From Oscillospiraceae bacterium (lineage in GTDB: Bacteria; Bacillota; Clostridia; Oscillospirales; Acutalibacteraceae): a stretch of 43,419 bases of DNA. Positions within the stretch are counted from its first letter, which is position 1, and every line of letters begins with the position of its first letter. The notes beneath the pieces were generated by a model. That model was given only the letters and a program-made list of their open reading frames with translations, searched no databases and was not told where the DNA came from. The translations under genes and the position numbers were made by a program. Where the stretch lies: NCBI GenBank assembly GCA_015066525.1, contig SVOG01000043.1:1-43419 (forward strand), given 5' to 3'. Below are positions 21,166-39,670 of this stretch, piece after piece.

Positions 21166-21200
21166 AATGTAAACATTAATTATATTTAGTTAATGTTTAC
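21166..21200. promoter_or_regulatory. Candidate operator: AATGTAAACATT plus inverted copy
   Basis: AATGTAAACATT (21166-21177) starts 4 bases after the -10 box. GTAAACATTAA (21169-21179) and TTAATGTTTAC (21190-21200) form an 11-bp inverted repeat with a 10-bp gap. The position at the start site suggests repression; the regulator is unknown. Confidence 0.5.
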
Positions 21201-21222
21201 AATTCGAGCGACAGGAGCAAGT

Positions 21223-21924: not shown

Positions 21925-22091
21925 GATTTCTGAAAGATGAAAACGGCCAGGGTCTGGTCGAATACGGTATGATTTTAGGTCTGATTGCGGTATTAACAGT
22001 GGCGATTATCGTGGTGCTCGGCAAGAGAACGAAGGGTTCGTTCAAATCATCCGACGACGCACTTGCAAACGCCGACATACCCGCTGAATAA
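21921..22091 (+). CDS. flp1: Flp pilin 1
   Basis: 56 aa, starting MRFLKDENGQGLVEYG. The Flp/Fap pilin pattern is clear: short charged leader, cleavage predicted after Gly9 (NG/QGLVEY, with Glu at +5 and Tyr at +6), then a single hydrophobic helix (about 16-33) and GKRTKGSF. It overlaps the tadV stop by 4 bases and has no SD of its own, so translation depends on coupling. About 66% of its first 41 residues match Flp2. It is likely a minor pilin because of the weak initiation signal; that is an inference. Confidence 0.92.
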   Translation: MRFLKDENGQGLVEYGMILGLIAVLTVAIIVVLGKRTKGSFKSSDDALANADIPAE

Positions 22092-22151: not shown

Positions 22152-22319
22152 ATGACATTTCTTAAGGACGAAAACGGTCAGGGCATGGTTGAGTACGGTC
22201 TCATCCTTGGTCTCATCGCGGTAGTTGCAATTGCACTTATCGTAGTTGTAGGCAAGAGAGTTAAGGGCTCATTCCAGAGTGCTAACGAAAACATGTCTGA
22301 TGTACCGGCAGCTGACTAA
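22152..22319 (+). CDS. flp2: Flp pilin 2 (probable major pilin)
   Basis: 55 aa, starting MTFLKDENGQGMVEYG. Predicted cleavage is after Gly9, giving QGMVEY with Glu +5 and Tyr +6. A hydrophobic helix covers about 16-34. It carries a strong AAAGGAGG SD, unlike flp1, and a GC-rich hairpin with a short T-run follows it. High translation and a partial terminator are what one would expect for the structural subunit of the pilus fibre. Confidence 0.94.
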   Translation: MTFLKDENGQGMVEYGLILGLIAVVAIALIVVVGKRVKGSFQSANENMSDVPAAD

Positions 22320-22396: not shown

Positions 22397-22981
22397 TTGA
22401 AACACCGAAACAAGAAGAAAAGAGAATCCGGTCAGGCTATGGTGGAGTTCGCTCTGGTATTGCCGCTATTTTTATTGCTGGTCATGGGCATCATTGACTT
22501 CGGCTTTCTTTTCTATAATTATATCTCAATGGAAAACGCCGCGCGAAATGCGGCGCGTGTAGCGTGCGTTGAGTATAAAAAAATCGGGTACGATGTGGAA
22601 CGGGATGTCCCCTTAACTCCCAGAGTACTGAAATTACCCGACGGCGACGCAACACTGCTCGAGTCCTATACCGGCGACGAATACGAGGATTATCGAACGA
22701 ATGAAATTGAACTCTGCCGCCATGTGGCGCGCTCGCTGGAGCATACAGGCATTGATGACGAAGGCAGAACCGTGACGGTTACCTATACATATGATGACAG
22801 TCCCCACTCGGAATCCGAGGGTTGGGAGGTCAAAGACCGCCATCAGGGTGACGTCATTGTAAAAGTGGAAGGGAAGGCACATGTGCTTACCCCTGTTTTA
22901 GGCGTTTCCGCGGATCATATGCTCAAGCCGCTGACCTCATCATCGGTTTATAAGGTCGAGCGGCAATATGAGTCTAATTAA
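22397..22981 (+). CDS. tadE: TadE-like pseudopilin
   Basis: 194 aa, beginning with a TTG codon. A basic leader ends SG, followed by QAMVEFALVLPLFLLLVMG: prepilin-like cleavage after Gly12 with Glu at +5 and Phe at +6, then a membrane helix. The rest is an extracellular domain with 'YISMENAARNAARVACVEY', the typical TadE/F segment after the helix. TadE is a pseudopilin processed by TadV and needed for pilus assembly. AGAGGTTGGTGA lies upstream of the TTG; no ATG or GTG gives a better start. Confidence 0.92.
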   Translation: MKHRNKKKRESGQAMVEFALVLPLFLLLVMGIIDFGFLFYNYISMENAARNAARVACVEYKKIGYDVERDVPLTPRVLKLPDGDATLLESYTGDEYEDYRTNEIELCRHVARSLEHTGIDDEGRTVTVTYTYDDSPHSESEGWEVKDRHQGDVIVKVEGKAHVLTPVLGVSADHMLKPLTSSSVYKVERQYESN

Positions 22982-23082: not shown

Positions 23083-23760
23083 ATGAAAAAAGTTTATTTA
23101 ATCGCAGTTGTTTTCGCACTGCTCTCGATGTTTGCAACCTTTATGTTTGCAAATCAGCTCGACAAGAAAACCACCATTAAGGACACGCAGGTCGTTTACG
23201 CTGCTGCTCAGGAAATTGCGGACAACACCAAGATTACTGAGGAAATGATTGCGGAGGACGCAGGATACTTCAAGCCGGTTAATATGATTGAGAGCACACT
23301 CAACGATTCGATGATTACCGACCTCACCGCCATCGTAGATAAAGTAACCGTCGACAAGATTTATCCCGACGAACTGCTCAACACCAACAGACTTGTTGAC
23401 GCTGACTCCGACCAGGTCGGTCTTTCCCAGAAGCTGGCACCCGGTCATGTGGCTTACTCCTTCAGCGCAGGCTCGGTTAACGGCGTAGACGGTTATATCA
23501 GAGTGGGCGATACGGTTGACGTTATCGTATACGAGAAGAACACAAACGGCAAGACCGTGACAAGAGTAGCATATAAGGACCTCAAGATTCTCAGAGTTTC
23601 CAACGCGTCCGCTGATGCAACCGCAAACGAGAGCGGCTCCACGATTCGCGACTACGGCACACTGACCGTTGAAGTTACCGAGAAGCAGGCGCTTCAGCTC
23701 TATGAAATCGAGAGCGACTACACCTTTAAGCTCGTACTTAACCCACGCAATAAAAAATAA
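23083..23760 (+). CDS. cpaB: CpaB/RcpC-like SAF-domain pilus assembly protein
   Basis: 225 aa. An N-terminal signal-anchor helix (about 4-23) is followed by an SAF-like region (about 36-105, 'VVYAAAQEIADNTKITEEMI') and an RcpC/CpaB domain with 'GHVAYSFSAGSVNGVDGYIRVGD TVDVIVYE'. In Gram-negative Tad systems RcpC/CpaB lies in the periplasm next to the secretin. Monoderm systems keep it without the secretin, presumably outside the membrane around the fibre exit. SD AAGGAAGG. It is 26 bp ahead of tadZ. Confidence 0.9.
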   Translation: MKKVYLIAVVFALLSMFATFMFANQLDKKTTIKDTQVVYAAAQEIADNTKITEEMIAEDAGYFKPVNMIESTLNDSMITDLTAIVDKVTVDKIYPDELLNTNRLVDADSDQVGLSQKLAPGHVAYSFSAGSVNGVDGYIRVGDTVDVIVYEKNTNGKTVTRVAYKDLKILRVSNASADATANESGSTIRDYGTLTVEVTEKQALQLYEIESDYTFKLVLNPRNKK

Positions 23761-23785: not shown

Positions 23786-24973
23786 ATGGAAAAGATTAAT
23801 ATAGTTGTTTGTTCAAACGATACCGAATACAAGGTAGCCCTCAAGAACAAACTGGTAGATGATAATTTAGCAATTATCGGCTATGCCGATATCGAACCGA
23901 ATGCCAAAGTAAGAGTGCAGGGATTTGTACCTGATATTGTTACCTTCCTGGTTGACAGTATGGATATCAATCCTCAGTTTGTGGATTACATAGAGGAAAT
24001 GAGCCTTGCGTCAATCGGTGCAATCCCCGTCATTCTCACCGATAAGGTTACGGTTGATATTGTCAATATGGCTGCGCAGGCAGGCGTAAAGCAGGTGCTC
24101 GACATCAATGTGGACGGCAAGGAGTTCTGCGACAGCATGGAGCGCCTTGTTGCCAGAGAGAGAAGATTCAATACCGACAGCACCGTTGAAAAGAAAACCC
24201 GTTCCACCGTTTACGGCTTCTTCAGCGGTAAGGGCGGTGTCGGCAAGACGACGATTGCTGCCAACGCAGCCGTAGAACTTGCTTCGAGAGGAAAGAAAAC
24301 ATTACTGATTGACCTCGACCTTCAGTTCGGCGATGCCGATATGGCGCTCGACCTCACACCGACGGAGACCATTGTTGACCTGTCGAGAGACGGCAACGGG
24401 GTTTCCATCGACAATCTGACCACCTGTTGCACCTCACACCCGTCGGGACTTTCCCTTCTTGCTTCGCCGCCGTCACCGGAACTTGCCGAGTATGTCAGTT
24501 CTGCGTCGGTGAAGTCCATCATTGATGTAGCAAGAAACTATTTTGAGTACATACTGATTGACTGTGGCTGTGCGCTGACCGACCCGGTTATTACCGCTAT
24601 TGAGGGTGCGGACATTATCTTTATGGTAAACGACGTCAATATTCTCTCTCTTAAGAGAGCAAAGGTTTGCCTCAACGTTATTCAGCAGCTCAATCAGAAG
24701 GATAAGGCAAGACTCCTCATCAACAAGAATGTGAAGAAGAATAACGTCACAATTGACGATTTTGAGAATCTGCTCGGCATTCCGGCGTACGCTGTTATCT
24801 CCAGTGACTTTAAGACCGTTAACTCCTCACTGAATAACGGTCAGCCCGTTACGACCTATAAACCCCGCTCGCCGATTGCGCGCGATATTGTAAATCTTGT
24901 AGACAAGCTTGTCCTTGAAAGAGAAGGCAAGGTTGACTCCGGCAAGAAAACAAGAAGGATAGGTGCTAAATAA
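23786..24973 (+). CDS. tadZ: TadZ/CpaE-like polar-localisation ATPase
   Basis: 395 aa. The N-terminal receiver-like domain (1-125) lacks an evident phosphorylation site. The ParA/MinD-type ATPase domain (about 140-375) has a deviant Walker A, GKGGVGKTT (148-156), and LIDLDLQFGDADMALDL as Walker A'/switch. TadZ proteins mark the pole and recruit the Tad machine. SD GGAGAGTAAG. The stop codon shares a base with the tadA start (TAATG). Confidence 0.93.
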   Translation: MEKINIVVCSNDTEYKVALKNKLVDDNLAIIGYADIEPNAKVRVQGFVPDIVTFLVDSMDINPQFVDYIEEMSLASIGAIPVILTDKVTVDIVNMAAQAGVKQVLDINVDGKEFCDSMERLVARERRFNTDSTVEKKTRSTVYGFFSGKGGVGKTTIAANAAVELASRGKKTLLIDLDLQFGDADMALDLTPTETIVDLSRDGNGVSIDNLTTCCTSHPSGLSLLASPPSPELAEYVSSASVKSIIDVARNYFEYILIDCGCALTDPVITAIEGADIIFMVNDVNILSLKRAKVCLNVIQQLNQKDKARLLINKNVKKNNVTIDDFENLLGIPAYAVISSDFKTVNSSLNNGQPVTTYKPRSPIARDIVNLVDKLVLEREGKVDSGKKTRRIGAK

Positions 24974-26328
24974 TGGGACTTCTTGACAGATACGGAACAA
25001 TAGAAGAGGCAAATGCCCCTGCTCAGCCCGCTGAGGAAGAGGAGCGCAGAGGCGCGGTTAGAGCGACCAGATTGCAGAGCGACGACCCGTTTGCTGATAC
25101 AAAAACAGCGATTCACAATGCCATTGTTGAGAAGCAAATCAGTGAATCTGCCAATGTTACCGAGGAGGGTATGCGCGCCCTCATCAAAGAATATGTTGAA
25201 AAGCCCGAATACGGTATTCCGCGTATCGACAGAACCGTTGTCGCCGAAGAGCTTTACGACGACATTATGGGTTACGGTCCGATTCAGCCGCTTGTCAATA
25301 GCGATGAATACAGTGAAATCATGGTAAACGGACCCTACCAGGTATATGCCGAGAAAAAGGGTAAGATTGTCCTGACGGATATTCAGTTCAAGGACACCGC
25401 GCACCTGATGCAGATTATCGACCGTATTGTTACCAAGGTCGGCCGTCACGTCGACGAGGCAAGCCCGATGGTCGACGCACGTCTTCCCGACGGCTCCCGT
25501 GTTAACGTTATTATTCCGCCGGTATCCCTTGTCGGTCCGGTGCTTACCATCCGCAAGTTCAGCAAGAAACTCATTACGGCGCAGACGCTTATCGCGCTCG
25601 GTTCTGCCAACCATAAGATGCTGGCGTTCCTCGAGGCGGCGGTTAAGGGCAAGCTCAATATTATCGTATCCGGCGGTACCGGCTCCGGTAAGACAACGCT
25701 GCTCAATATTCTCTCTGCGTACATCCCCGATGACGAGCGTATCGTTACCATCGAGGACTCCGCCGAGGTACAGCTCAAGCAGGAGCACGTTATCACACTC
25801 GAGAGCCGTCCTGCCAACATGGAAGGTCAGGGTAGAATCAGTATCCGCGACCTCGTTGTCAACGCACTTCGTATGAGACCCGACCGTATCATCGTCGGTG
25901 AGGTTCGTTCCGACGAAACCCTCGATATGCTCCAGGCAATGAATACCGGTCACGACGGCTCGCTTACCACCATCCACGCAAACTCGCCGCGCGATTCCAT
26001 CTCCCGTATTGAGACGATGGTTATGATGTCCGGTTCCGAACTTCCGTCCAAGGCGATTCGTGACCAGGTAGCGTCCGCGATTAACCTCATCGTGCAGCAG
26101 GCGCGTCTGCGTGACGGTACGAGAAAGATTGTCTCCATTTCCGAGATTGTCGGAATGGAGGGCGACGTCATCCGTATGCAGGAAATTTTCGCTTACGAAA
26201 CCACGGGTGAAATGGATACCGACGGTAAGTTTAAGGGCGAATTCAAGGCGACGGGTATTGTGCCCAAGTGTATTGATAAAATTAAAGAGAACGGAGTGAT
26301 TGTAAGCAATGACTGGTTCACTTCTTAA
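24973..26328 (+). CDS. tadA: Tad secretion ATPase TadA (CpaF)
   Basis: 451 aa, cytoplasmic hexameric ATPase of the type II/IV secretion family that drives pilus polymerisation (and retraction in some Tad systems). Motifs: Walker [10 protein letters not shown] (234-242), Asp box IEDSAEVQL (260-268), Walker B RIIVGEVR (305-312), and His box [13 protein letters not shown] (326-338). The N-terminal 50 residues are acidic and variable. It overlaps tadB by 20 bases. Confidence 0.97.
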
Positions 26329-27301
26329 TATTATAATAATTGCCGGCTTGTCGCTGACCTTCGCTGCTCTGACTTTTTTCCTGGTCTATATTATTGCTTC
26401 TGCAGTAGCAGCCGATAAAATCGCTGCCGAGAAACGACTGGAAGAACTGAATAAAGCAGAGGGCGACGGCGAATTGGTTGCTCTTGTCAAGAATGAGAGC
26501 AAGACGCGCGCGAACAAAAGAACGCGCCAGAGACAGCATAGCCGTTTTGACGAAAAGGTCGGTAATGCGATTTACCGCCAGTTGCAGTCCGCGGATATCA
26601 AGATGCGTCCCGAGGAATTTCTGATAGTATGGCTGATTATTGCCTTTTTCCCCGGCGCCTTGGTGGTTGTGTTCACACGTAATGTGATTCTGACGCTCGT
26701 GCTGATTGCTGTTGGCGCCGTACTGCCGATTATATATGTTAAGAGCAAGCAAAAATCACGCGTTAAAAAATTCGAAGAGCAGCTCAGCGATGCGCTGATG
26801 ATTTGCATCAGCTGTCTGCGCTCCGGTCTCAGCTTCAATCAGGCGATGGAAACCATTGCCAAGGATATGGACGCGCCGATTTCCGTGGAATTCTCTACGG
26901 TTGTCCGAGAAGTCAATATGGGTTACTCGATGGATGAGGCACTCGAAAACCTCGGCGACAGAATTAAGAGTAAGTACGTTGACCTGATGGTATCCGCTGT
27001 GCTCGTACAGCGCCAGACCGGTGGTAATCTCTCGAAGATTCTGCAGAGTATTTCCGACACCATCCGTGAACGAATGAAACTCAAGAGACAGCTTAAAACC
27101 TCTGTTGCCTCCGGTAAGATGTCCGGTATTATCGTTGGCATGCTTCCGGTTGTCGTTCTCGGATTATTTACACTTATCGCCAGAGATTTTGTCAGTGTTC
27201 TTTTTACAGATACGCGCGGTCATCTGTTGCTCCTTGGAGCGGCAGGTCTCGAGGCAATTGCTTTTGTGGTTATAAAGAGAATCACAACCGTCAAGATGTA
27301 A
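26309..27301 (+). CDS. tadB: Tad membrane platform protein TadB
   Basis: 330 aa, T2SSF-domain integral membrane protein. An N-terminal helix (about 7-33), a central pair (about 106-147) and a C-terminal pair (about 275-325) flank the GspF-like cytoplasmic domain with 'CISCLRSGLSFNQAMETIAKDM'. TadB and TadC form the inner-membrane platform on which TadA acts. The start overlaps tadA by 20 bases. Confidence 0.95.
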   Translation: MTGSLLNIIIIAGLSLTFAALTFFLVYIIASAVAADKIAAEKRLEELNKAEGDGELVALVKNESKTRANKRTRQRQHSRFDEKVGNAIYRQLQSADIKMRPEEFLIVWLIIAFFPGALVVVFTRNVILTLVLIAVGAVLPIIYVKSKQKSRVKKFEEQLSDALMICISCLRSGLSFNQAMETIAKDMDAPISVEFSTVVREVNMGYSMDEALENLGDRIKSKYVDLMVSAVLVQRQTGGNLSKILQSISDTIRERMKLKRQLKTSVASGKMSGIIVGMLPVVVLGLFTLIARDFVSVLFTDTRGHLLLLGAAGLEAIAFVVIKRITTVKM

Positions 27302-27314
27302 GGAGGGTATACAG

Positions 27315-28271
27315 ATGAAATTTTGGATTCCTGCATTAGTTATTTCCTATGCGATGTTCGCGTTCGGTCTTGTCATCATTCTTTTGACCAAACGAGGCGA
27401 GGAAGAGGATAATAATTTCCGCCGTAAGAAGGCACTCGGCAAAGAAACGGTTAAGGCGGATTATAAAAATGTGGACACCACATTCTATGACCGTGTCGTG
27501 AAGCCGATGCTTGATAAAATCAATAACACGGAGCGTTACGGTGAAAACGCGACAAAGAGTGAAAGACAGAAGAAAAACCGAGAGCTTTTAGCCGCTAAAC
27601 TCAGAAAAGCCGGTATGCATATCTCGGTATCGAACTACACATTCTTCAAGACTGCGTTTTCGGCGGTTGTCATTGTACTGTCCATCGGTATCAGCCTGAT
27701 TCTGTTTATCTACGGTATGATTAAGCCCGCGCTGTTTGTCGTAATCGTCGGTATTCTCTTTGGCATTCTGGCGCCCGACCTCTATCTGTCACTGAAGGTG
27801 AAAAAACACCAGGAAGCGATTAAAATGCAGCTTGCCGATACCATTGACCTGCTCAGCGTTTGTATGGAAGCGGGTCTGAGCTTTGACGCATCACTTGTTA
27901 AGGTGGCGGAGCGTATGGACGGTCCGCTGATTGACGAGTTAATGACGGTGTTCCGTCAGATTCAGCTCGGTAAGAACAGAAACGACGCGCTGAAATCCAT
28001 CGCCGATGCCTCCGACGTTAAGGAACTCAAGACCTTCGTGTCGGCGGTAACGCAGGCGGGACAGCTCGGTATTCCGATTACCAATGTACTCCAGGCACAG
28101 GCGGAGCAGCTTCGTCTTGACAAGAGCGAGGAAATCAAGGAGGTTGCCTCCAAGGTACCGACCAAGATGACAATTCCCACGGTTATTTTTATTCTGCCTG
28201 CATTTGTTCTGGTCATTATCGGACCGGTTATCATTCAGGTAATTGATGTTGTTAAAGAATCATTCGGATGA
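27315..28271 (+). CDS. tadC: Tad membrane platform protein TadC
   Basis: 318 aa, T2SSF domain, same topology as TadB: an N-terminal helix (about 4-24), central helices (about 112-155) and C-terminal helices (about 288-312). 'LLSVCMEAGLSFDASLVKVAERM' is the GspF-like core signature. AGGAGGG SD 7 bases before ATG. The stop codon overlaps the start of the DUF192 gene. Confidence 0.95.
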   Translation: MKFWIPALVISYAMFAFGLVIILLTKRGEEEDNNFRRKKALGKETVKADYKNVDTTFYDRVVKPMLDKINNTERYGENATKSERQKKNRELLAAKLRKAGMHISVSNYTFFKTAFSAVVIVLSIGISLILFIYGMIKPALFVVIVGILFGILAPDLYLSLKVKKHQEAIKMQLADTIDLLSVCMEAGLSFDASLVKVAERMDGPLIDELMTVFRQIQLGKNRNDALKSIADASDVKELKTFVSAVTQAGQLGIPITNVLQAQAEQLRLDKSEEIKEVASKVPTKMTIPTVIFILPAFVLVIIGPVIIQVIDVVKESFG

Positions 28272-28621
28272 TGAAAAAATTACTGAAACTTAAGAAAAAC
28301 GGCGAAATTTTACTGAGTGAAATTGAGGACGCGTCCTCCTTCTTTAAGCGGTTTATGGGACTGATGTACCGCCGCGAAATGGGGGAGGAGCACGGACTCC
28401 TGCTCACGCCGTGTAATGAAATTCATACCTTCGGTATGCGATTCGATATCGATACGATTGCGATGTCGAAGGAGGGCGAGGTCCTCTTTATCGACAGAGC
28501 CGTTCCGCCCCGTAAGGCGCGCAAGAAAGTCAAGGGCGGCTATATGATGCTTGAGCTGTGCTCCGGCGTCAGCGATAAGCTCGGAATTTCAGTCGGCGAC
28601 AAACTGGAATTTTGCGAGTAG
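28268..28621 (+). CDS. DUF192 domain protein in the Tad operon
   Basis: 117 aa, one DUF192 domain. The family pattern is seen: 'FFKRFMGLMYRREMGEEHGLLL' start, then 'IHTFGMRFDIDTIAMSKEGEVLFI', 'PPRKA' and a C-terminal 'MLELCSGVSDKLGISVGDKLEF'. No signal peptide is present, whereas many DUF192 proteins are exported. Function is unknown for the family. Translational overlap with tadC (ATGATGA) and position between tadC and the DivIVA-like gene make it a real operon member, which suggests a role in pilus assembly or localisation. Confidence 0.88.
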   Translation: MMKKLLKLKKNGEILLSEIEDASSFFKRFMGLMYRREMGEEHGLLLTPCNEIHTFGMRFDIDTIAMSKEGEVLFIDRAVPPRKARKKVKGGYMMLELCSGVSDKLGISVGDKLEFCE

Positions 28622-28645: not shown

Positions 28646-29308
28646 ATGGCAGACGAAATCAAGAGAGAAGACATATTAGGCTCAACTAATAAGTCTTATA
28701 GTTTCGATAAGGTGCTCCGCGGATATGACCCGAAGCAGGTTGACGAGGTGCTCGCAAATTTGCAAAAGGCAAATAAGAGCGCTACGGAAATCTTTGACCA
28801 GCGAGTCGTTGACTTAAAGAACAAAAACGAGATGCTCACTTACGAACTCGAGCAGGCGAAGCAGGAAGCGGACAGAATGAGAAACCTCTTCAATCAGTGT
28901 AAGGAAGAGCGCGACGCCCTTGCGGCAAAACTGCAAAAGGCGGACCGCAAGGCGGCAATCAGCGCGCCCGTGGATAATTCCGCTGAACTTAAGGAGCTCG
29001 ACGATAAACTCCAGAAGGCACTCACTAAGAACAGACTTCTCCAGGATGAGAATAAGAAACTCGAGGACCAGAACAGGGACCTTCAGCGCGATGTAGCACA
29101 TCTGACGAAAAAAGTGGACAAAAACAGAAGCAAGATTAACGACCTCGAAGGTCAGGCACAGCAGGGAATGGCGGATGAAGACGCTAAGAAATTCTCCGAG
29201 GTTGCCCAGATTTACGAGAGTGCCATCGACAAGGCTGAAGATTTGATTTACAGACTCCAGACCGAATTTTCCCTCGCGCACTCCAAAGCAGAGGATATTA
29301 AGAAATAA
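28646..29308 (+). CDS. DivIVA-like coiled-coil protein in the Tad operon
   Basis: 220 aa. The N-terminal SYSFDKVLRGYDPKQVDEVL (17-36) matches the DivIVA/GpsB membrane-binding motif (F..vlrGYd..qVd.fl). The rest is coiled coil (about 40-175, heptads of L/I with E/K/Q/R) and a helical C-terminus. DivIVA proteins bind negatively curved membranes at poles and septa and recruit partners. In this operon it may help TadZ place the pilus machine; that is inferred from position only. SD GAAAGGATAA. Confidence 0.85.
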   Translation: MADEIKREDILGSTNKSYSFDKVLRGYDPKQVDEVLANLQKANKSATEIFDQRVVDLKNKNEMLTYELEQAKQEADRMRNLFNQCKEERDALAAKLQKADRKAAISAPVDNSAELKELDDKLQKALTKNRLLQDENKKLEDQNRDLQRDVAHLTKKVDKNRSKINDLEGQAQQGMADEDAKKFSEVAQIYESAIDKAEDLIYRLQTEFSLAHSKAEDIKK

Positions 29309-29368: not shown

Positions 29369-32300
29369 TTGAAACAGTTACATAAAATCAGGAAAGAGAG
29401 AGGCGCCATAATGGTAATGACGGCACTGATGCTGACCGTCCTGCTTGGCTTTACTGCGCTGAGCATCGACATCGGCATGCACCATTACCTCGGAGCAAAG
29501 CTGCAGAATGCGGCGGATGCTGCGGCATTAGCTGCGGGTACGATGCTCGACGCCGATGAAAGTGAGCGCTATAACGCGGCTTACGATTATCTCGAGAAAA
29601 ACGGATATGACAGGGATGAGGTCACTGTTAAGATTGACTATAAGGGCGTTGCGCCCGAAGCAGCGGACACTTCCGTTCATGAATACGACGAATATATTTC
29701 CAAGGGGTATATGCGCGTTTCTGTAGACGCGTCGGACGATACCCTTTTTGGTAATGCGCTCGGTATCCGTTCTCTCCATCTTCATAAGGAGTCATATGTA
29801 CTGATTCAGCCTAACTATGAAGGTATGCCCGAGGCGTTGAAGTACAGTATTTTTGCCGGCGCAAGACTGGGTGATTATAACGAAAAGGATGCCCAGGGAA
29901 ATATCACCTCCTATATTGATAAGGACAATCCGGCGATGGATATCCAGGGCTCCACCGGCGCAGGTTCGGGAGAAACCGCCTTTTCATCCGTTGTTGCGGT
30001 GGCGGAGAATACGATTAACGGTGTCAACGATTTTGTCCAGAATTTCAAGGGCTGGATGAACAGCACCTTCGGTACTTCTTTTACGCAGGATTATAATAAA
30101 CTCGTTAATATCAATGTGTCGGAAGCCGTGATGAATAACGACTCCCACTCCAACTCCAACATTTTAATCGGTGTGCAGGCGCTGAACGTTGCCCGCACCA
30201 AGGATAACGACTATACCGGTGCATCACCGGCTGACGATACGGATTCTAACTACGCATTCAATCAAAACGACGAATATAACGGCCATACCGACGCCGAGGA
30301 TTACGGCGCGGTACACTTTACCGCCGTGGAGGGTCGCGACCCTAACGATGCGACGAAATACGGTATTAAATTCGGCTATTCCCTCTATGCGGAGCAGAGA
30401 GCCTCTAACTTCATCAGCCAGGCTCTCGTCAACTATCTGAATACCCAGTCGGACAAAGCGCGTGTCTATACGCAGAATATGATTAACGTCCAGGCGATTC
30501 AGCATACGATTAATATCCTCAACGAAATGGACCTCGACAACTGCCACGACGGTACCTTTGCGGGTACGTACGGTGACGGCGAAGGCGAATTTGAAAAAGC
30601 GGCAATTAAATATTTTGAAGTAAACAGCAAGGTTTCGGATGCTATCAAGACCCGCGTATTCCAGCTTGAGCCCGACCTCACCTTCCATTCGGCGGATAAT
30701 ACGGTGACGCTCGATAATCAGGAAGCAATCGTTTACCGCGTCAGCCAGAAAGAGGCGACGGATTATCTCAACCAGTATTCGAGTATTGCCGTTGACAGGG
30801 ACTCCAAGATTGAGGAACAGCGTCTCAGCCGTCTGGAGCAGATGACTGCTTTATTTCAGTCGGAAGGTTATGATAAAGTCTATCGCGATAATTCTTCCGA
30901 GAACGGACTCCTCTATGCCGGCTATGCCGATAAGGACGGCGGCAATATCGACCATGAAAAGATTGTCCTCGAGCGCTATGAGGATAAGAACGGCAATCAC
31001 GCCGATAAGGAGGATGATGGCGCCCGGCTGAAGTATACCTATACCCTGACGATTAACGGCACCAAGGTAAACCGTAATCTGGGTAATATGGAAGAATACA
31101 TCGGCTCCTTTAACTGGAGCAACGCGCTGAATGACGTCAAGGCGACCCGCCTCGGCGCTTACCATTCGGTAACGCGTACCTTTATTGAAAACAGCGATTA
31201 CATCAGTATGCCGAACCTCAGACCGTACTTCGTGCGCCAGATTAATCAGTCCGTGCGCGATGCAACGAAGAAGCGCGGTCAGTTAGGCGACGGCACCACC
31301 ACGGGCGACAAGAGCGTCGTTCTGGCAGTTCAGTCCGCACAAAACGGTCTGAACGAAGTTACGAATGAAGTAAATTACACGGATTCCACCTATGAGGATC
31401 TGGATGAATATACCAACGGCGGCACGACGGGCTATGCCAAGAAGCTGCTCTTTAACGATTTCAAGGCGAATGCCGACTCCGGACTGACCCAGCTAACCTC
31501 GGCTGAGCAGACGCTTGGCGGCGTTTCGATGTCGAACGATTCGTTTAAGGGGTTTGACCTTTACGATAATAATAACAAACTCAAGACGGCGAGCGACTTC
31601 GTCGAAGAGTATGATGATGAACACGGCGCCGAATTCGGTCATACCGCTGTCAACGCGTATGCCAACAAGCAGACGCACGCCGGCGGCAAGGAAGAGACGG
31701 CAGTCGCAAATAAGAAAACGCAGATTTATAATACCTACGGCTCCGCCGTATCCGGCAACAGCGGTTATGCTACGAAGAAGGTAGGGGTTGAAGACGCAAT
31801 CAACGCTTTGACGAAACCCGTCATTCCCGATATTAACGGCGCGACCGAGGAAGAACAGCAGCAAATGAATGCGGACCGCGGTGTCGAGATTGCGACCCCG
31901 ACCAATCCGCTTGCTACCATGCCCGACCAGATTTTCCTCGGCGGCAACGGCGCAGGCAGAAACGGTCTCGTTGTCGGTGCCGGCACGGGCACGAAGCGCG
32001 CTGAGTTCAACACGGCGATTATCAATAATCAGTCCGTCGGCGCTGACGATTTCAACGCCGTATCGGTCAATACTTCTCAGTTTAATTCGGGTTACACCGC
32101 AGCAACTGTCACCTTCCCGGAGGATTACACCACGGCAATTTCGTCTATTCCCGGCACTGATGCTTTTTCGTTGCCTGTTGAAAACCAAAACGGTTGGAAA
32201 TGGGAAGCATGGGTTAACAGTGACAGTTCTAACTGGGAATTACAAAATAAAAAGATTTACGGTATTGCCAGTGACCGAAAGATTAAAAAGAGTTTGTATG

Positions 32301-35300
32301 TAAAGAGCGGTAATACATCCTATATCTTTGGTTATATGGACATTAACGCCAATGGTAAGAGCTTGGATCTCGGTCAGGATGGCGGCTCCAATGCGACGCT
32401 CTATGTTGATGGCGATATTGATATCCGAAGCGGTCAGACAGGACATATCGACTTCAGAACCGGCTGTAAACTGTACACCACCGGATTTATCTGGGTACAG
32501 AGCGGTTCCTCTTGGCAACAGAGGCAGCTCAAAAAGGGCGCCTATGTTCAGGTCGGCAAATTCTATAGATCCGGCGCCGGTCTTGACATCGGTGAAGAAA
32601 ACGCTACGGCTTCCGAAAAAGCAACGATGATTTGTAGCGGTGAAGAAAAATTAAATCTCACCATCGATGGAGTTAACTATAATTGCGGCTATGCTATTTC
32701 CGGTACTACCACCGTATGGCAGAACAGCGAACTCTATGTCAACGGCGATATGGTTAACGAGTCCGATTCCGGTTATCTGTTGCTGAAGTCCAACTCCAAA
32801 GCAGTCATCAACGGCGACTTACTTGTCAGAAAAGGCGAAAGCAGCAAAGGCATCTATGTTGAGCCCGGTGCAACCCTTTATGTTGCCGGTGACATCACTC
32901 TGTGGGAACAGAAGATTGAAAACTACGGCACAATTGTGTGTGGCGGTAAAATTGATTCGCGAAAAGGCGATATCGTTAATAACGGCACGATTTATGCCGG
33001 CAGCGTATCCGTCGGCAGCGGCACCACCCGTTGGCTGTATAATAACGGTACCTTCAAAACAACGGGCGATGTCTGGGTTAACGGTCAGTTCCTGAATAAC
33101 AATTCCCAGAGTGACATTACAGTTGAGGCGGTTATCGGCGGAAATCTGACAACTAAGAGTACAATCTCTAATTACCCCGGCAAACACACCGGATTTGATG
33201 CTACTCTTCGCGTAAACGGTACGATTGATACCAACGGAAACGCCATTTATAATAACTTTGACAACAATGTAAGCGGTTCTACCGCACGCCTCTATGTCAA
33301 TGCCATCAGCGATGCCTGCGGTGCACTGTATAACTATCAGCCCGGCGTTGTCCTCGGCGGCAGCGGCGCGCTCAAGCCCACGAATATTTACAATAAGGAA
33401 AACTGTGTTATCAAGACGAACGGCTCCATTGATACCACTACGATTACGAATAGCAGCGGCGCCATCTGCTCTGCGGTAGGCGATTTGAAGGCGTCCACGG
33501 TCACCAGCAGCGGCGCGTTCGGCTGCGGCGGTATTCTGAAGATTTCCAACTCGCTGAACGCTTCGCACGGCATCACGGTCGGCGATGAAATTCAGGGCAC
33601 GGGCGACTTTACCTGCGCGGGTATCACTTGTGTGAATAAGATTACCGCCAAGTCCATTAACACTTCCGGTAACGTCCGTACCAACGGTGATATTGCACTC
33701 ACCGGTGATTTGACCATCGGAAACGGTGTCAGCGTCACAACGACGAACGGTGATTTGACAGCGGTTAATATTACGAATAATAACTCGCTTCTCGTTCACG
33801 GTAAAATCAAGGCAACCGGCAAGCTGACGAATAAGAATTACGTCCTTTGTCTCGGTAACGTGGAGACGACCGGCGACCTGGATAACGGTACCACGGATGC
33901 CAGAAGCACCAATTTCCACTGCTTCGGCAATATGACGGTCGGCGCTCATCTCGATAACTACGGTAATCTCTATCTCGGTTATGATGATAACGGCACGATG
34001 AAGAACGGTGCCCTTACCGTAAACGGCAATAACGGCACGCACTCAATTTCAAGCTTCGGCAGCATTTATGCCTGCGGCAATATCAACACGAATTACGAGA
34101 ACTATCTCAGCGGCACGGATATTTACACCATCGGCGATTTCATCGCCTGCAAGACGGGCGGCACCAATCTGATGGAAATGCTCGGCACCTGCCATGTCTA
34201 TATCCGCGGTATGCTCACCACCGCTTCCTCGCAGGCGGCGGATAAGCATATCTGGATGCACGACGGCTCCAACACCGTGCTCAGCGTTCTCGGTAACGGC
34301 GCGGCAGCCAATGTGGACTGCTTCGGCAACAAGCTCGACGAGCTCTGCAATCAGCACGCGGGCAGCAATATCTACCTCGGTACGAATCTGTATCTCGCCG
34401 GTACCGGCTCCTATACGGATGAGAGCACCAGAAGCGATAAGCTCGTCAACGCCGGCAGACTCTATGTCAACGGCAGCATCGTTGCGCCGAATGCGAAGAG
34501 TATTTCGCTTTACGGCAGCGCGGGCTCGTATAACACGGAGAAGGATCTTCCCTCCGATAATGCGAAAAACAACGCGAAGTATTCCTACGGCGGTATTACG
34601 TACTGTAAGGATGAATTCAACGCGCCGAATGCAACGGTGATTCTGGCGGACGACCATCTGCTTTATGTAGAAGATACCTATGACGCTGACGCAAAACCGG
34701 GCAAGTGCAATATCCTTGTCAAGAGCGTCATTATGAAGAATAACTCCGTTTTGTTCTCGCCGAACACGGCGTCCATCACGGGTGATATGGTTCTCAGAAA
34801 TAATGCGGTTGTCAATATCCGCAAGAAGATTGAGACGACGCCGCGTTATTCGGATGATTTCTCGGGTGCTGTCTATGCGCCGATTACGGTTGATTTGACC
34901 GGTGCACCGCTGATGAATATTACGACGAATATCGTATTCAATACGGGTAAGACCGCCGGTAACCTCAGGGGTACGAATGTACGCATTAAGGTAAACGGCA
35001 ACCTGACCATCAACGGCGAAATCAATCTGAAGAACTCCGTCCTGATTGTCACGGGTAATCTGATTTGCCGCACCCTCACGATGGATAATTCCAATCTGTG
35101 GGTACAGGGCACGACGCTGATTACCAATAACAGCACCACGAGCGGCACGGGCGGCGCAGTCGATATTTCAAACGGCTCGCTTGTGCGCCTCGACGATTCC
35201 CTGATAAAAGCGGGTTCCCTCACGATTGATAAGTCCACTGTATTTGCGACAGAGGGTATCGCCTCGGCAACGACGCTGTCGCTTGACCATAAGGGTCAGC

Positions 35301-38300
35301 TCTTCAGCAGGGATGACAACGCAAACAAACACGATGACAACGTCATCCTTTCGGGCGATACGACTGTAAAAGGTCAGTCCAAGGTTTATGTGGACGGCGA
35401 CCTCAGAACCACGTCGCTGACGGTTGACGATGCGTCCGAGGTACTCGGTTATACCGGTATCGTATTCCCGAACGGCGGCACGGCTGCCATCACCATCGAC
35501 CGCACGACGCACGGCGCGAATAACAGCCTTGTATTCTGCGGCGAGAATATGACGGATACGGTTTACTATAACTGGCAGATTGACGGTACGCTGTACCTGC
35601 CGGGCGGCAAGCATTTCGGCAATACCGCAAGCACCTATCCCACCGTCTACGTTCATAACACGGGTATCGTAATTTGTGACTCGGCGATTACTTCCACCTG
35701 GGTACAGGTCGGCGATGATGCTTCGGCGAACGGCAAGGCAACGCTTTACTGCGCTGAAAAAATCACGCTCAAGGATAACGCTACCTATACGAACTACGGC
35801 AAGCTCTATGCTTACGGCGGTACGGATATTGCAAACGCGCGCAAGGCGGGCGGTAATAACGATTACGATTTCAACCTGCTCCAAAACGGCAGCGAGACCT
35901 TCCTCGGCAGTATTTATAACGGCGGCGTTTCCCCGGTATCAACTTATACCACTGCCGGATACTATACCTGCCGCGGTACCGTCTATATCGACGCAAGCCT
36001 GAACGTGACGGGTAAGACGACGGATGGCAACCTCAAGCTTGGTGGTAACCGTGATGTCGGTCTCTATATGCCTGAGGGCGCAGTGACCTATGTATCGGGT
36101 AACGCGACCTTCGGCACGGGTAATGCCACGAGGATTGAGCGCGGCGGCGGATTCATCACCGGCGGTGATTTGAATGTAAGCTCAACCATCTGGAACTTCG
36201 GCAAGCTCCATATCTACGGTGCGTTCAATCTGGATAATAATAACGAGTGGATTACCGATAATAAGAATTCGAAAAATGAGCCATACAAGGGCTGGTCGCT
36301 CCAGAACGGCTGGAACCAGGATAACGGCGGCGCAGGTGCATCCTTCCTCGCCTATAACCACGGTGATGTCGGCACGATGATGACCTTTAAGGGCTACGTC
36401 AAGAACAGCGGTAACATCCATATGAACTACGGTCTGAGCGTGGAGGGATTCGCGACTCACGACGGTGTGCGCGGCGACTACGCATTCGTGAACTACGTCG
36501 GTTCAAACGCTCAGTTCGCCGGTGAATTCCGTTGTAACGGTAACCGTTTCTTCAACAAATGGAACACTTCGTTCGGTTGCGACGGCAGATTTACCTATTC
36601 GGAAATAGCCTATAACTGCGGCAAGATGTATGTTGGCGGCGACATGATTGACGGCGGTATTGAAAACGACAATTACCAGTCGTTCTCCTGCCGTAAGGGT
36701 AAGGACGTTCGCGATAACGAAGTCGGTTGGTTTAATATCAACGGTTCACCGTCACGTTCATTCTCGTTTATGAACGGCACGTATAAGGTTACGGAAGATA
36801 CAACCAAACGTACATCCGAATTTACTTGGCCCGAAGCAACGCTGTTCGTTGGCGGCAATATGCAGATTGGCGACTACGAATCACAAAAGAAGGCGGGTAC
36901 CGTTCTTAACCTCGGTGATATGTACACCGGCGGTAGTCTCAAAGTGTATTCCTGGGGTGGTAACGAGACGAACGATACCGGACCGGCTTTCTATCAAACA
37001 TCGTTAATGGCGTTCAATGATTCCAATACTTTTGTTGGTGGCGAATGCTATTCCGGTTCCGCAGCAGTAACGGGTAAAAACTCCATCTTTATGTGCGACG
37101 GCGACCTGCGCGTCAGACGACCGCTGAAGGTGAATATGTGGTTTAAGTTCTACAACAACGGCGGTAGTGCAGGCGATGTCATTTCGTATTTTGAAGACGG
37201 ACAGTATAAGGGTAAGGGCTGGCTCGGCTCCAACGATGACGGCTTCAGAGCATGCTATATGCGCGTCGGCGGCAGTGTTTACGCGAATGTAGAAGGACGC
37301 GACCTTGAAAACTTCCTGTTTACAGGCTTACTTGGTGATATTGTACCGTATGACCACTCGCGTGATATTGATATCCAGGCGAATGCCAATATTATGATTG
37401 GCGGCGGCTTCTACTGTCCGCAAAAGCTTTACTTGAAGCAGAATGTCAATATGACTATCTGTAACGAGGAGGGCAAGGGTCTTTACGACAGTAACGGCAA
37501 CCTCAACTGGAAGGCGCGCGGTCTGGATGAATTGGCAAGTCAAAGCAATAAGGATAATCCTCTTGTTTACGGTCCGGGTGTTACAAGTACCTTGACAAAT
37601 AACGTAAACAGTATTCTGGACTGGATTTCGAACAAGAAGCCCGGCGAGGAATGTGCCCTGTTTGCGTATATGCTCCTGGATATGAATATTTGCTCACAAC
37701 TTGTGGTACACGGCAATACCTTTGTTCGCGATACCTGCAAGATACGCGATATGACAAAGACTTATATCTACGGAGATATGATTGCCAAGAATTACCTCGA
37801 AATCGGTAAATCACTTAACGATAGTAACGAGGACGCAACCGAGGCACGGCTTGAGAAATACAGGGCGCCCGGCGAGAACGATACGAAGTACGTATTCTCC
37901 AATGCCGGATATATGTATGTTTCAGGCAATATGCAAAGCACCAAGTACTCCAAGATTTACGCCTCCACCACGGTGAAGGTCGGCGGCGATATGAGAGCGG
38001 GCGACTGGACCCAGGTTCTCGGCAATCCCTATATTACCCTGCGTCACGACGCGCGGCTCTTTGTCGGCGGTAATATGACTGCTTATTCGTCCATCGACTG
38101 CGGCGCTTACTCCGAACTCTATGTCCGCGGCAACTGTACGGCGTATACGCAGAATATTAAACTGCGCGACCAGATGGCTTGCTACATCGGCGGCGATATG
38201 GCTGCGGCGACCTATATCGAGCTCGGTAAGTACGATACGAACTTCTATCGCGGCGTGAAGTCGCAGCGCGTTCAGCAGTATCTGGATGCGGCGGATGACG

Positions 38301-39670
38301 ACGCGAACCGACCGGAAAACGACGGCTCGAATAACGACGTTTCCGACGGCGGTGAGTTCGCTTATAACGGCGACGAGCATGAGGTCGGCAATAACGATAA
38401 CGCGACCGAGGCGGGTAACGATAACCAGTCTGAAACCGGTCAGGAGACCCAGGGAGATACCAACTCCTATACCAATAAAGAAAATGAGATTATGAAGGAG
38501 GAGACCGAGCTCGGTAAGGACGACACCGACCTTTCGGTAGGTAGTGAGTACTATATCGGCGGTAACATCATCTCCTTCACGAAGTACATCCGTGAGTATG
38601 CTTACTCGCGTGTTGTATCGGGCGGTTATGTGATGGCAGTTCAGCATGTTACCCTGCGTCATAACGCCGATTTGTGGGTGCTTCCCGAAGTATTCGGCAA
38701 GACAACCTACCACACCACCGTATATCAGCACCAGCCTGACTGGGATGCGAATTTGTGGAACCGAATTAAGGATAAGGTGGCGCAGATTGCCCACGATGTC
38801 AAGGAGGACTTTGAGCCTAAGGCGGGTAGCGTATATTCGCTCGGACAGCTGACGCTGAATAAGAATGCCTCCATCTTCGGTACTTATGACACGATGGTAT
38901 TCGGTCAGACCGTACTGCGTAAGGCGTCGCTCATCTATATGGGTCACGACTTCGACTGCTGGGCACCGATTTATAACCTCCAGTCCGATTTCAGTTCGTT
39001 TGACGGATTTATGAATAGTATGAAGGCAAACCTCGGACTCAGCACGAGCAAGAGCTATAAGGGCTTCGACTCCTATGACGAAACGCAGAATGACGAGGTC
39101 ATCCCGAAACCGATTGTGGTTTACGCAAATAACGAAATTAACGTCTCGACGACGGCGCGTATCCGTTCGACGTACTTCGTCGCAAACCGGGGCAATGTCA
39201 ACTTCACGAATCTGAACTTCATTTCAGAAACGTCCGAGACAACGCCGAGCGACGCGATTAATCTCCCGAATGCGTTTGCTTCCTATCAGGGCGATGTCAA
39301 CTTCTATGCGCTGCGCGGCTCGCTCGGTGCACTGATGTATGCGCCCGTAGGTAATGTCGACCTTGACGGATTTGCGTATAACTTCTACGGCAGTATCGTC
39401 GGTCACACGGTGGACATCAATACCTTCTATATCAATGTACACCGTTTCAATAACTGGCGCTCGATGGACCTCCATATCGCCACCTCCAAGAATGTCTACC
39501 TGATACCGCAGGAGGAATACGATACGGCGAAGGATAATGTCGACGACCTCTATCTGTACGGCTACGAGACAAATCCGGATACCAGCCTCAACGAATGGGC
39601 ACAGCCCTTCTTCCCGGGACTGAAGAATACGGATACCTCGGGCGACCAGTTAGAAGGCGGCTCCGACTAA
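29369..39670 (+). CDS. Giant TadG-like pilus-associated protein with beta-helical repeats (3433 aa)
   Basis: Starts with TTG (SD AAGGGGG). Residues 13-35 are a membrane helix after a short basic leader ending RG, followed by LQNAADAAALAAG (45-57). This matches the TadG/Flp-assembly N-terminal domain. Position +5 after Gly12 is Met, not Glu, so cleavage by TadV is doubtful. Residues about 60-955 are mixed, with no vWA MIDAS motif seen. From about 960 to 2970 short repeats of the type 'xYVxGG(D/N)M' with rungs of about 20-28 residues recur, rich in Gly/Asn/Thr, as in beta-helices and bactofilin-like repeats. Residues about 2974-3060 form an acidic Asn/Asp/Glu linker. The C-terminus (about 3288-3361, with GALMYAPVGNVDLDGFAYNF and YGSIVG) resembles PilX/DUF7305 pilin-accessory regions. 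No LPxTG sorting motif is present. It is the last gene of the operon; an adhesive or structural pilus protein is inferred. Confidence 0.9.
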   Translation: MKQLHKIRKERGAIMVMTALMLTVLLGFTALSIDIGMHHYLGAKLQNAADAAALAAGTMLDADESERYNAAYDYLEKNGYDRDEVTVKIDYKGVAPEAADTSVHEYDEYISKGYMRVSVDASDDTLFGNALGIRSLHLHKESYVLIQPNYEGMPEALKYSIFAGARLGDYNEKDAQGNITSYIDKDNPAMDIQGSTGAGSGETAFSSVVAVAENTINGVNDFVQNFKGWMNSTFGTSFTQDYNKLVNINVSEAVMNNDSHSNSNILIGVQALNVARTKDNDYTGASPADDTDSNYAFNQNDEYNGHTDAEDYGAVHFTAVEGRDPNDATKYGIKFGYSLYAEQRASNFISQALVNYLNTQSDKARVYTQNMINVQAIQHTINILNEMDLDNCHDGTFAGTYGDGEGEFEKAAIKYFEVNSKVSDAIKTRVFQLEPDLTFHSADNTVTLDNQEAIVYRVSQKEATDYLNQYSSIAVDRDSKIEEQRLSRLEQMTALFQSEGYDKVYRDNSSENGLLYAGYADKDGGNIDHEKIVLERYEDKNGNHADKEDDGARLKYTYTLTINGTKVNRNLGNMEEYIGSFNWSNALNDVKATRLGAYHSVTRTFIENSDYISMPNLRPYFVRQINQSVRDATKKRGQLGDGTTTGDKSVVLAVQSAQNGLNEVTNEVNYTDSTYEDLDEYTNGGTTGYAKKLLFNDFKANADSGLTQLTSAEQTLGGVSMSNDSFKGFDLYDNNNKLKTASDFVEEYDDEHGAEFGHTAVNAYANKQTHAGGKEETAVANKKTQIYNTYGSAVSGNSGYATKKVGVEDAINALTKPVIPDINGATEEEQQQMNADRGVEIATPTNPLATMPDQIFLGGNGAGRNGLVVGAGTGTKRAEFNTAIINNQSVGADDFNAVSVNTSQFNSGYTAATVTFPEDYTTAISSIPGTDAFSLPVENQNGWKWEAWVNSDSSNWELQNKKIYGIASDRKIKKSLYVKSGNTSYIFGYMDINANGKSLDLGQDGGSNATLYVDGDIDIRSGQTGHIDFRTGCKLYTTGFIWVQSGSSWQQRQLKKGAYVQVGKFYRSGAGLDIGEENATASEKATMICSGEEKLNLTIDGVNYNCGYAISGTTTVWQNSELYVNGDMVNESDSGYLLLKSNSKAVINGDLLVRKGESSKGIYVEPGATLYVAGDITLWEQKIENYGTIVCGGKIDSRKGDIVNNGTIYAGSVSVGSGTTRWLYNNGTFKTTGDVWVNGQFLNNNSQSDITVEAVIGGNLTTKSTISNYPGKHTGFDATLRVNGTIDTNGNAIYNNFDNNVSGSTARLYVNAISDACGALYNYQPGVVLGGSGALKPTNIYNKENCVIKTNGSIDTTTITNSSGAICSAVGDLKASTVTSSGAFGCGGILKISNSLNASHGITVGDEIQGTGDFTCAGITCVNKITAKSINTSGNVRTNGDIALTGDLTIGNGVSVTTTNGDLTAVNITNNNSLLVHGKIKATGKLTNKNYVLCLGNVETTGDLDNGTTDARSTNFHCFGNMTVGAHLDNYGNLYLGYDDNGTMKNGALTVNGNNGTHSISSFGSIYACGNINTNYENYLSGTDIYTIGDFIACKTGGTNLMEMLGTCHVYIRGMLTTASSQAADKHIWMHDGSNTVLSVLGNGAAANVDCFGNKLDELCNQHAGSNIYLGTNLYLAGTGSYTDESTRSDKLVNAGRLYVNGSIVAPNAKSISLYGSAGSYNTEKDLPSDNAKNNAKYSYGGITYCKDEFNAPNATVILADDHLLYVEDTYDADAKPGKCNILVKSVIMKNNSVLFSPNTASITGDMVLRNNAVVNIRKKIETTPRYSDDFSGAVYAPITVDLTGAPLMNITTNIVFNTGKTAGNLRGTNVRIKVNGNLTINGEINLKNSVLIVTGNLICRTLTMDNSNLWVQGTTLITNNSTTSGTGGAVDISNGSLVRLDDSLIKAGSLTIDKSTVFATEGIASATTLSLDHKGQLFSRDDNANKHDDNVILSGDTTVKGQSKVYVDGDLRTTSLTVDDASEVLGYTGIVFPNGGTAAITIDRTTHGANNSLVFCGENMTDTVYYNWQIDGTLYLPGGKHFGNTASTYPTVYVHNTGIVICDSAITSTWVQVGDDASANGKATLYCAEKITLKDNATYTNYGKLYAYGGTDIANARKAGGNNDYDFNLLQNGSETFLGSIYNGGVSPVSTYTTAGYYTCRGTVYIDASLNVTGKTTDGNLKLGGNRDVGLYMPEGAVTYVSGNATFGTGNATRIERGGGFITGGDLNVSSTIWNFGKLHIYGAFNLDNNNEWITDNKNSKNEPYKGWSLQNGWNQDNGGAGASFLAYNHGDVGTMMTFKGYVKNSGNIHMNYGLSVEGFATHDGVRGDYAFVNYVGSNAQFAGEFRCNGNRFFNKWNTSFGCDGRFTYSEIAYNCGKMYVGGDMIDGGIENDNYQSFSCRKGKDVRDNEVGWFNINGSPSRSFSFMNGTYKVTEDTTKRTSEFTWPEATLFVGGNMQIGDYESQKKAGTVLNLGDMYTGGSLKVYSWGGNETNDTGPAFYQTSLMAFNDSNTFVGGECYSGSAAVTGKNSIFMCDGDLRVRRPLKVNMWFKFYNNGGSAGDVISYFEDGQYKGKGWLGSNDDGFRACYMRVGGSVYANVEGRDLENFLFTGLLGDIVPYDHSRDIDIQANANIMIGGGFYCPQKLYLKQNVNMTICNEEGKGLYDSNGNLNWKARGLDELASQSNKDNPLVYGPGVTSTLTNNVNSILDWISNKKPGEECALFAYMLLDMNICSQLVVHGNTFVRDTCKIRDMTKTYIYGDMIAKNYLEIGKSLNDSNEDATEARLEKYRAPGENDTKYVFSNAGYMYVSGNMQSTKYSKIYASTTVKVGGDMRAGDWTQVLGNPYITLRHDARLFVGGNMTAYSSIDCGAYSELYVRGNCTAYTQNIKLRDQMACYIGGDMAAATYIELGKYDTNFYRGVKSQRVQQYLDAADDDANRPENDGSNNDVSDGGEFAYNGDEHEVGNNDNATEAGNDNQSETGQETQGDTNSYTNKENEIMKEETELGKDDTDLSVGSEYYIGGNIISFTKYIREYAYSRVVSGGYVMAVQHVTLRHNADLWVLPEVFGKTTYHTTVYQHQPDWDANLWNRIKDKVAQIAHDVKEDFEPKAGSVYSLGQLTLNKNASIFGTYDTMVFGQTVLRKASLIYMGHDFDCWAPIYNLQSDFSSFDGFMNSMKANLGLSTSKSYKGFDSYDETQNDEVIPKPIVVYANNEINVSTTARIRSTYFVANRGNVNFTNLNFISETSETTPSDAINLPNAFASYQGDVNFYALRGSLGALMYAPVGNVDLDGFAYNFYGSIVGHTVDINTFYINVHRFNNWRSMDLHIATSKNVYLIPQEEYDTAKDNVDDLYLYGYETNPDTSLNEWAQPFFPGLKNTDTSGDQLEGGSD

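Follow-up and report, generated by a model that had tools for sequence, protein, structure and literature searches.

A 3433-residue TadG homolog with a predicted beta-solenoid at the end of a clostridial tad operon

The tad operon and its neighbourhood

The window analysed here, a 43,419-nucleotide contig stretch from an Oscillospiraceae draft genome, carries a tad operon on the forward strand, in which a single gene cluster encodes TadA, TadB, TadC, TadE, CpaB, TadZ, a prepilin peptidase, Flp pilins and a final protein of 3433 residues (hereafter, the giant; Table 1). The gene that follows the giant, for a glycogen synthase, lies on the opposite strand. The first-pass annotation, which had the giant reading frame closing a Tad operon, was exact in its coordinates, strand and length, and the arrangement of the flanking genes agrees with it. 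No secretin gene was found among the scanned genes of this operon or among the tabulated operon genes of its relatives. A DivIVA-like tad-operon gene lies immediately 5' of the giant in all 24 distinct loci that cover the giant's 5' end (the window included; four more of the fetched pieces start within the giant).

Several other features of the region deserve mention. The two Flp pilin genes stand in tandem and are alike in sequence. The DivIVA-domain gene could set the pilus machine at the pole or the septum; coiled-coil-like genes occupy a similar place at loci L060 (judged by eye) and L087, and a DUF192 gene is also present in the tad operons of L060, L087 and L062, three relatives with short TadGs. 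A methyltransferase gene (19810-20958) lies 5' of the peptidase gene, and the operon at L048 is likewise preceded by a methyltransferase. Positions 17659-17908 hold a tandem array of three copies of an 83-base unit that are 99% alike, and the interval between glgA and glgD has two more short arrays (41253-41285 and 41349-41379), whose 7-base units, AGAATGG and ATTCTCA, are partly complementary in sense. Among the relatives, TadZ of L067 (13837-14972) and TadC of L069 (6436-7370) are each split in two frames, owing either to a gene break or to an assembly break.

Table 1. Genes of the tad operon and segments of the giant TadG in the window (aa, residues of the giant)
Feature	Position	Strand	Evidence and remarks
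Prepilin peptidase (A24; TadV/CpaA)	21193..21924	+	PF01478, E 2e-8
Flp-type major pilin 1	21921..22091	+	56 aa, DENGQGLVEYGMILGLIAV
Flp-type major pilin 2	22152..22319	+	55 aa, DENGQGMVEYGLILGLIAV
TadE minor pilin	22397..22981	+	PF07811, E 8.9e-20
CpaB/RcpC	23083..23760	+	PF16976, E 1.4e-16; TIGR03177
CpaE/TadZ-type ATPase	23786..24973	+	PF13614, E 2.1e-16; named from operon position
TadA/CpaF motor ATPase	24973..26328	+	PF00437, E 4.7e-65
TadB platform protein	26309..27301	+	PF00482
TadC platform protein	27315..28271	+	PF00482
DUF192 protein, conserved operon member	28268..28621	+	PF02643, E 2.6e-18; conserved position
DivIVA-like coiled-coil protein, adjoining the giant's 5' side	28646..29308	+	TIGR03544, E 9.5e-6, above cut-off
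Giant TadG, final gene of the tad operon	29369..39670	+	3433 aa, 373 kDa
Putative pilin-like N-terminus, aa 1-150: long hydrophobic helix, then strands	29369..29818	+	PF13400; AF2 (low to moderate confidence)
Conserved N-terminal block, aa 151-860: mixed helix/strand	29819..31948	+	No solenoid periodicity
HSNSN motif, aa 260-264	30146..30160	+	Common to short TadGs; closes the N-terminal aligned part
Predicted beta-solenoid, aa 950-3380: 20-residue rungs, ~70 detected	32216..39508	+	Periodicity, rung model, AF2
Most conserved solenoid end, aa 3041-3380	38489..39508	+	~aa 3193-3379 homologous to the DUF7305-type end of short TadGs

The N-terminal region of the giant

The giant is encoded by an uninterrupted frame of 3433 codons with a TTG start, which aligns with the ATG of the homologs; a ribosome-binding-like AAGGGGG ends 8 nt upstream of it. 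Residues 12-57 match the Pfam family Tad (PF13400, E 3e-8, 34.3 bits against a cut-off of 22.3), which bears out the TadG-type N-terminus of the first-pass annotation. This was the sole Pfam family above its cut-off, and nothing exceeded the threshold in NCBIfam, PHROGs or the PDB sequences. The AF2 model has a helix at residues 2-57 and strands at 84-145, in blocks with pLDDT mostly 58-74 and weak stretches between them.

A conserved E-x-G-A precedes the hydrophobic stretch, and there is no Glu at position +5. Counted from the conserved Gly, this position is hydrophobic in all 16 complete giants (M, I or W by pattern in 15 of them, V by eye in L069) and likewise hydrophobic, without Glu, in the six short TadGs considered below. 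Glu occupies +5 in 25 of the 32 TadE rows, the other seven having been missed by the pattern, partial or unclear, and it is present, by reading, in both Flp pilins of the window.

A predicted beta-solenoid of some 70 detectable rungs

The annotation had described about 2000 residues of 'xYVxGG(D/N)M' repeats, in rungs of 20-28 residues, and predicted from them a giant beta-helix. In its literal form the motif is rare in the giant as a whole (YV.G[GD] occurs five times and GG[DN][MIL] nine times), whereas a relaxed version, G[DN][MLI], turns up 33 times in residues 901-3000; 1000 shuffled sequences averaged 6.1 and never exceeded 14. The repeat part is longer than described, at ~2400 residues instead of ~2000, and rungs of 20 residues, the lower limit of the stated range, are the most frequent. 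The consensus learned for the rung reads approximately N-[SAG]-x-[LI]-Y-V-G-G-[ND]-[LI]-T, and 20 residues is the most common spacing. Autocorrelation of V, I, L and M over residues 950-2980 gave lags of 6, 8, 12, 14 and 20, that is, a 6+6+8 pattern; the signal starts near residues 950-1050, continues to about residue 3400 and is absent in residues 1-850.

A rung weight matrix found 988 instances in the 16 giants, or 2.89 per 100 residues compared with 0.74 in shuffled sequences; the respective figures for the N-terminal part were 0.65 and 0.55. With the window protein and the three relatives nearest to it left out of training, and with 50 shuffles for comparison, the model detected 71 rungs in residues 950-3400 of the window protein (shuffled mean 17.5, maximum 25) and four in residues 1-850 (shuffled mean 5.6). 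The same held-out model found 53 rungs in L069, 37 in L047 and 14 in L061 (shuffled maxima of 22, 15 and 6, respectively). The 552 residues of the partial giant L059 showed no excess (4 rungs, shuffled mean 3.3, maximum 7).

Structure prediction in pieces pointed the same way. The AF2 model of residues 2234-3433 supports a solenoid there (mean pLDDT 60.9, pTM 0.58, 540 of 1200 residues at 70 or above): it contains 86 short strands, with three-strand steps of 20-21 residues in 31 of 83 cases and of 18-22 residues in 39 of 83, along with one implausible strand of 49 residues near the C-terminus. The model of residues 2-1196 (mean pLDDT 48.2, pTM 0.37) shows a mixed domain at ~340-605 and strands from residue 954, and weakly suggests that the solenoid begins there. 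The input alignments were shallow, with 7 and 12 sequences, respectively, and model confidence is modest. Across residues 1197-2233, the predicted solenoid rests on sequence periodicity. Taken together, the periodicity, the held-out rungs and the AF2 models uphold the predicted giant solenoid, and the middle of the giant is very probably folded in this way. There is no tandem DNA array within 29369-39670; a recent tandem duplication was therefore rejected as the source of the rungs, which must be old or diverged.

Both ends of the giant match short TadGs

The two ends of the giant match, in the same order, the two ends of ordinary TadGs of 344-399 aa. The six short TadGs used in these comparisons were picked for the HSN motif: a pattern drew eight TadG-like proteins from 25 loci, of which five had the motif, and L062 was added by hand. 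The motif is missing from the short TadGs of L086, L092, L101 and L107, so that the DUF7305 type discussed here is only one of several short TadG forms.

At the N-terminus, hhalign comparison of the first 420 residues of the 16 giants with the six short TadGs gave P 1.4e-24, the alignment reaching the HSNSN motif. When an HMM of the short TadGs was run on 317 segments of the giants, the N-terminal segments ranked first (best E 1.7e-27), and the first others among the best 40 of the 317 were C-terminal (E 1.5e-12 and 3.3e-12). The C-terminal residues 3134-3433 matched the short TadGs in hhalign with a score of 73.7 (P 9e-10), and realignment carried the match to the short protein's final residues. 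In sliding hhalign comparisons the two ends scored best, segments from the middle reaching at most 49.5 (P 4e-6); in the control, 200 shuffles of the match columns gave at most 24.7. When all columns were shuffled, two of 100 shuffles beat the real value, with scores of 139.2 (14 columns) and 132.8 (5 columns). These look like an artefact of gap columns, although this is unproved, and HMMER tests that are independent of the hhalign control were therefore added.

For the latter, an HMM built from the C-terminal 330 residues of 15 giants (L069 was left out) was run on 1924 frames of at least 100 aa. All six short TadGs ranked first among the frames shorter than 1000 aa, with E values of 4e-8 (L087), 4.3e-4 (L089), 6e-4 (L063), 1.7e-3 (L090), 2.6e-3 (L060) and 0.73 (L062); the next frame, at E 1.0, was noise. 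In L063, L090 and L060 it is the end of the short TadG that is matched; in L087 and L089 the best-listed stretch lies earlier, with a negative per-domain score, and the per-domain scores are individually weak. A profile of residues 2234-3433, searched against 295 genomes of the order, had two matches only: the gene of the giant itself and, at E 1.8e-6, the end of the short TadG of L087. The held-out rung model detected 8, 8, 5, 8, 7 and 7 rungs in the six short TadGs, above all 50 shuffles in four of them.

The short TadGs of L060, L087 and L062 are encoded at or near the giant's place in the operon, after TadC and DUF192. The C-terminal part of the short relatives is DUF7305 (PF23981), above the Pfam cut-off in three of the five proteins scored. 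The DUF7305 HMM had no match on the C-terminal 395 residues of the giant and none above cut-off on the giant C-termini from 60 genomes, and the DUF7305 homology of the giants runs through the short TadGs alone.

We conclude that homology of both ends of the giant to short TadGs is well supported by these profile comparisons, and that the giant is almost certainly a TadG homolog. With its ends homologous to those of a short TadG and its length gained between them, it is the TadG of the operon and not the undescribed class of Tad-associated protein that had been suggested. The contrast drawn earlier with vWA-type TadGs also needs revision, given that the short relatives end in DUF7305. Profile checks for bactofilin, pectate-lyase and DUF7305 families, run with Pfam, gave nothing above cut-off on the giant. 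A vWA-type TadG/CpaL was rejected, no vWA family having been found in scans of the whole giant or of four pieces; bactofilin (PF04519) was missing from the matches of the giant at E 1 or below and of the pieces at E 5 or below; and no pectate-lyase family matched the pieces at E 5 or below.

Distribution and origin of the giants

Searched against 60 genomes, the first 3000 residues of the giant matched its own genome and 14 of 36 others of the same genus, compared with none of 23 from other genera. In a wider search of 98 genomes, a PF13400 gene was present in 22 of 60 from the genus. Fifteen of these 22 frames are complete, at 2318-3671 aa, and the other seven, of which at least 483 to 2099 aa remain, run off the end of their contig; none of the 22 is a complete short gene. 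A scan of named genomes with one pattern (34 stretches at 15 loci, not an exhaustive census) added the complete giant of L058 (2549 aa), bringing the complete homologs to 16. Several relatives are recorded from rumen-type habitats, goat rumen and red deer among them, and are filed as Eubacterium or Ruminococcaceae.

PF13400 was also found in 21 genomes of other genera among 394 sampled in the order, in 56 among 391 in the class and in at least 150 other genomes of 299 in the phylum sample, the three draws overlapping. Outside the genus, no PF13400 frame exceeded 1492 aa among the matches listed from these samples. A profile of residues 2234-3433 matched the giant's own gene alone in 245 genomes of the class, and the C-terminal 1200 residues had no match in plasmids. 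The first-pass annotation would have been contradicted by relatives of this size encoded away from Tad genes; we found none in these searches, and the homologue search it had suggested set complete genus giants of 2318-3671 aa against 1492 aa or less elsewhere, among the matches listed. In the searches made here, the giant-TadG family was seen in one rumen clostridial genus only.

On the TadA tree (34 rows) the giants have a single origin: a branch with 100/100 support sets the 22 giant loci apart from the rest (long-branch warnings were raised for L062, L060 and L084). The TadG-like proteins of intermediate size (complete frames of 874-1491 aa, L076-L085) resemble the giant in having a PF13400 N-terminus and a Tad-like locus but fall in a separate TadA clade (9 of 9), and the three sequences that were read look helical and lack the rung motif. 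Owing to the separate clade, they were ruled out as intermediates.

Length and sequence variation

Among the giants, length varies most in the middle. The aligned middle (residues 861-3040 of the window protein) ranges from 1237 to 2449 residues in the 16 giants (CV 21%), compared with 727-924 residues for the N-terminal block (residues 1-860; CV 6.5%) and 351-473 for the C-terminal block (CV 9.1%). In 14 close pairs of giants, the C-terminal block was the most conserved in all 14 and the middle the least conserved in 13. Against the relative at L032, identity is 93% for TadA, 56% for the N-terminal part of the giant and 40% for its middle. Gaps of 18-26 residues recur, by inspection, in the solenoid alignments of the relatives. 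The giants of L038, L052, L057, L067 and L071 carry zinc-ribbon-like pairs of CxxC in loops at about residues 3005 and 3240 of the window protein, which itself lacks them.

Discussion

A real, well-bounded and unusual gene thus closes this tad operon, and its parts suggest a history. The product would serve as TadG minor pilin in a Tad (type IVc) pilus of the Gram-positive type. It may have arisen from a DUF7305-type TadG (344-399 aa, 5-8 detectable rungs), whose small beta-solenoid would have lengthened in the ancestor of a single rumen clostridial genus as ~20-residue rungs were gained between the conserved N- and C-terminal parts, to between 70 and about 120 rungs. The N-terminal helix would hold the protein in the membrane and later, together with TadE, cap the growing Flp filament, from which the solenoid would jut out as a stiff rod. 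Beta-solenoids rise 0.48 nm per rung, so that 70 to about 120 rungs would make a rod of ~35-60 nm. Its conserved C-terminal end and variable sides might then contact the substrate, the host or neighbouring cells.

Rung amplification inside TadG, yielding a solenoid rod at the pilus tip that serves contact, is in our opinion the best explanation of the whole and somewhat better than an even bet. The tip position is probable; we infer it from the missing Glu5, a recognised feature of the tip pseudopilin GspK, and from published models. In those models, TadG, CpaL or KilN forms the backbone of the Tad tip and bears a C-terminal module (PMC12075869, PMC12607857, PMC13170226). With no secretin gene in the operon of the window, no outer-membrane pore would limit the size of such a tip. 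Given a tip location, adhesion or contact sensing would be a likely role, one inferred more weakly than the location. Bolder, and in our estimate falling a little short of even odds, is the proposal that each Tad filament ends in one single-chain solenoid rod of 35-60 nm, amplified once at the base of the genus and tuned in length rung by rung between species as a contact antenna or ruler.

The tip reading has to be weighed against one in which the giant never enters the pilus and, as a membrane-anchored solenoid of 35-60 nm, crosses the thick Gram-positive wall, where it would guide or gate the Flp filament or sense surface contact. The monoderm wall is of the same order of thickness as the rod, another conduit could be useful where the operons hold no secretin gene, and the giants lack the +5 Glu that may aid entry into the filament. 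However, the short TadGs, too small to span a wall, are equally devoid of Glu at +5, and TadG/CpaL has been modelled as a tip subunit, Aggregatibacter TadG having been reported from pilus preparations (PMC12607857). We therefore consider a wall-spanning base rod unlikely. A receptor for DNA uptake is less likely again. Such a role would have a counterpart in ComZ of Thermus thermophilus, a DNA-binding solenoid tip pilin (PMC6561018), and in Liberibacter a Tad pilus has been associated with DNA uptake (PMC8513845), but the solenoid segment is acidic in all 16 giants (pI 4.5-5.7), even if ComZ, too, is described as lacking a positive patch (PMC6561018).

The solenoid could also be an enzyme, bearing polysaccharide-cleaving sites like those of pectate-lyase-type helices and acting on plant fibre. 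Carbohydrate-active enzymes are common among solenoid proteins and several of the relatives come from the rumen; nevertheless, no pectate-lyase or glycosidase family of Pfam rose above cut-off on the giant or its pieces, no PDB sequence matched, and we hold a catalytic rod to be very doubtful. As for a chance open frame, a misassembly or a phage or mobile insert, the window does come from a draft genome (66 contigs, 73.86% complete), but the 16 complete homologs of 2318-3671 aa from independent assemblies, with conserved synteny, rule out a chance frame, and the lack of PHROG matches and of plasmid matches to the C-terminal 1200 residues speaks against an insert, leaving an artefact of any of these kinds a negligible prospect.

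We therefore return to a solenoid rod at the pilus tip and to the known systems closest to it. The short DUF7305-type TadGs (L060, Marseille-P2935, 399 aa; L087, 364 aa; L062, 344 aa), from related Clostridia, share with the giant the Tad-type N-terminus, the HSN motif, a solenoid-type C-terminus with a YAP-G...G ending and, at least approximately, the position in an operon with the same gene order, but are about one-tenth of its length, with 5-8 detectable rungs versus at least 70. ComZ, for which a position at the pilus tip has been argued, is a type IV pilin-like subunit with a large beta-solenoid of triangular shape; that solenoid, of ~380 residues, belongs to a competence pilus and separates the final two strands of the pilin sheet (PMC6561018), whereas that of the giant would comprise ~2400 residues in a Tad pilus. 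The solenoid part of this likeness is borne out in the giant by periodicity, rungs and AF2. CpaL/TadG and KilN are, like the giant, TadG-type minor pilins with a C-terminal module, modelled as customised Tad tips; CpaL has a vWA domain and KilN another fold, and in the portions of these papers that were available neither is described as a giant solenoid (PMC12607857, PMC12075869, PMC13170226). PilB of Streptococcus sanguinis similarly has a functional module grafted onto a small pilin module and is likely tip-exposed; of the multi-domain cases mentioned in the available part of that paper, the most extreme has 860 residues, and these modular type IV pilins are not of the Tad type (PMC8179133). 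In a subset of PubMed Central we found no title or abstract describing a giant or solenoid TadG, which does not prove its absence from print, nor was the term DUF7305 found in the literature searched there. The giant is best read as a new, extreme variant of the modular tip pilins.

If this reading is right, the giant would be by far the largest TadG across the 1000-odd related genomes sampled, and a small pilin-borne solenoid would be expandable about tenfold while the surrounding pilus machine stays conserved. A monoderm Tad pilus that carries a giant rod without a secretin pore would become testable, and the many relatives of differing length would allow rod length to be compared with function. 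The giant family may be of importance for rumen attachment.
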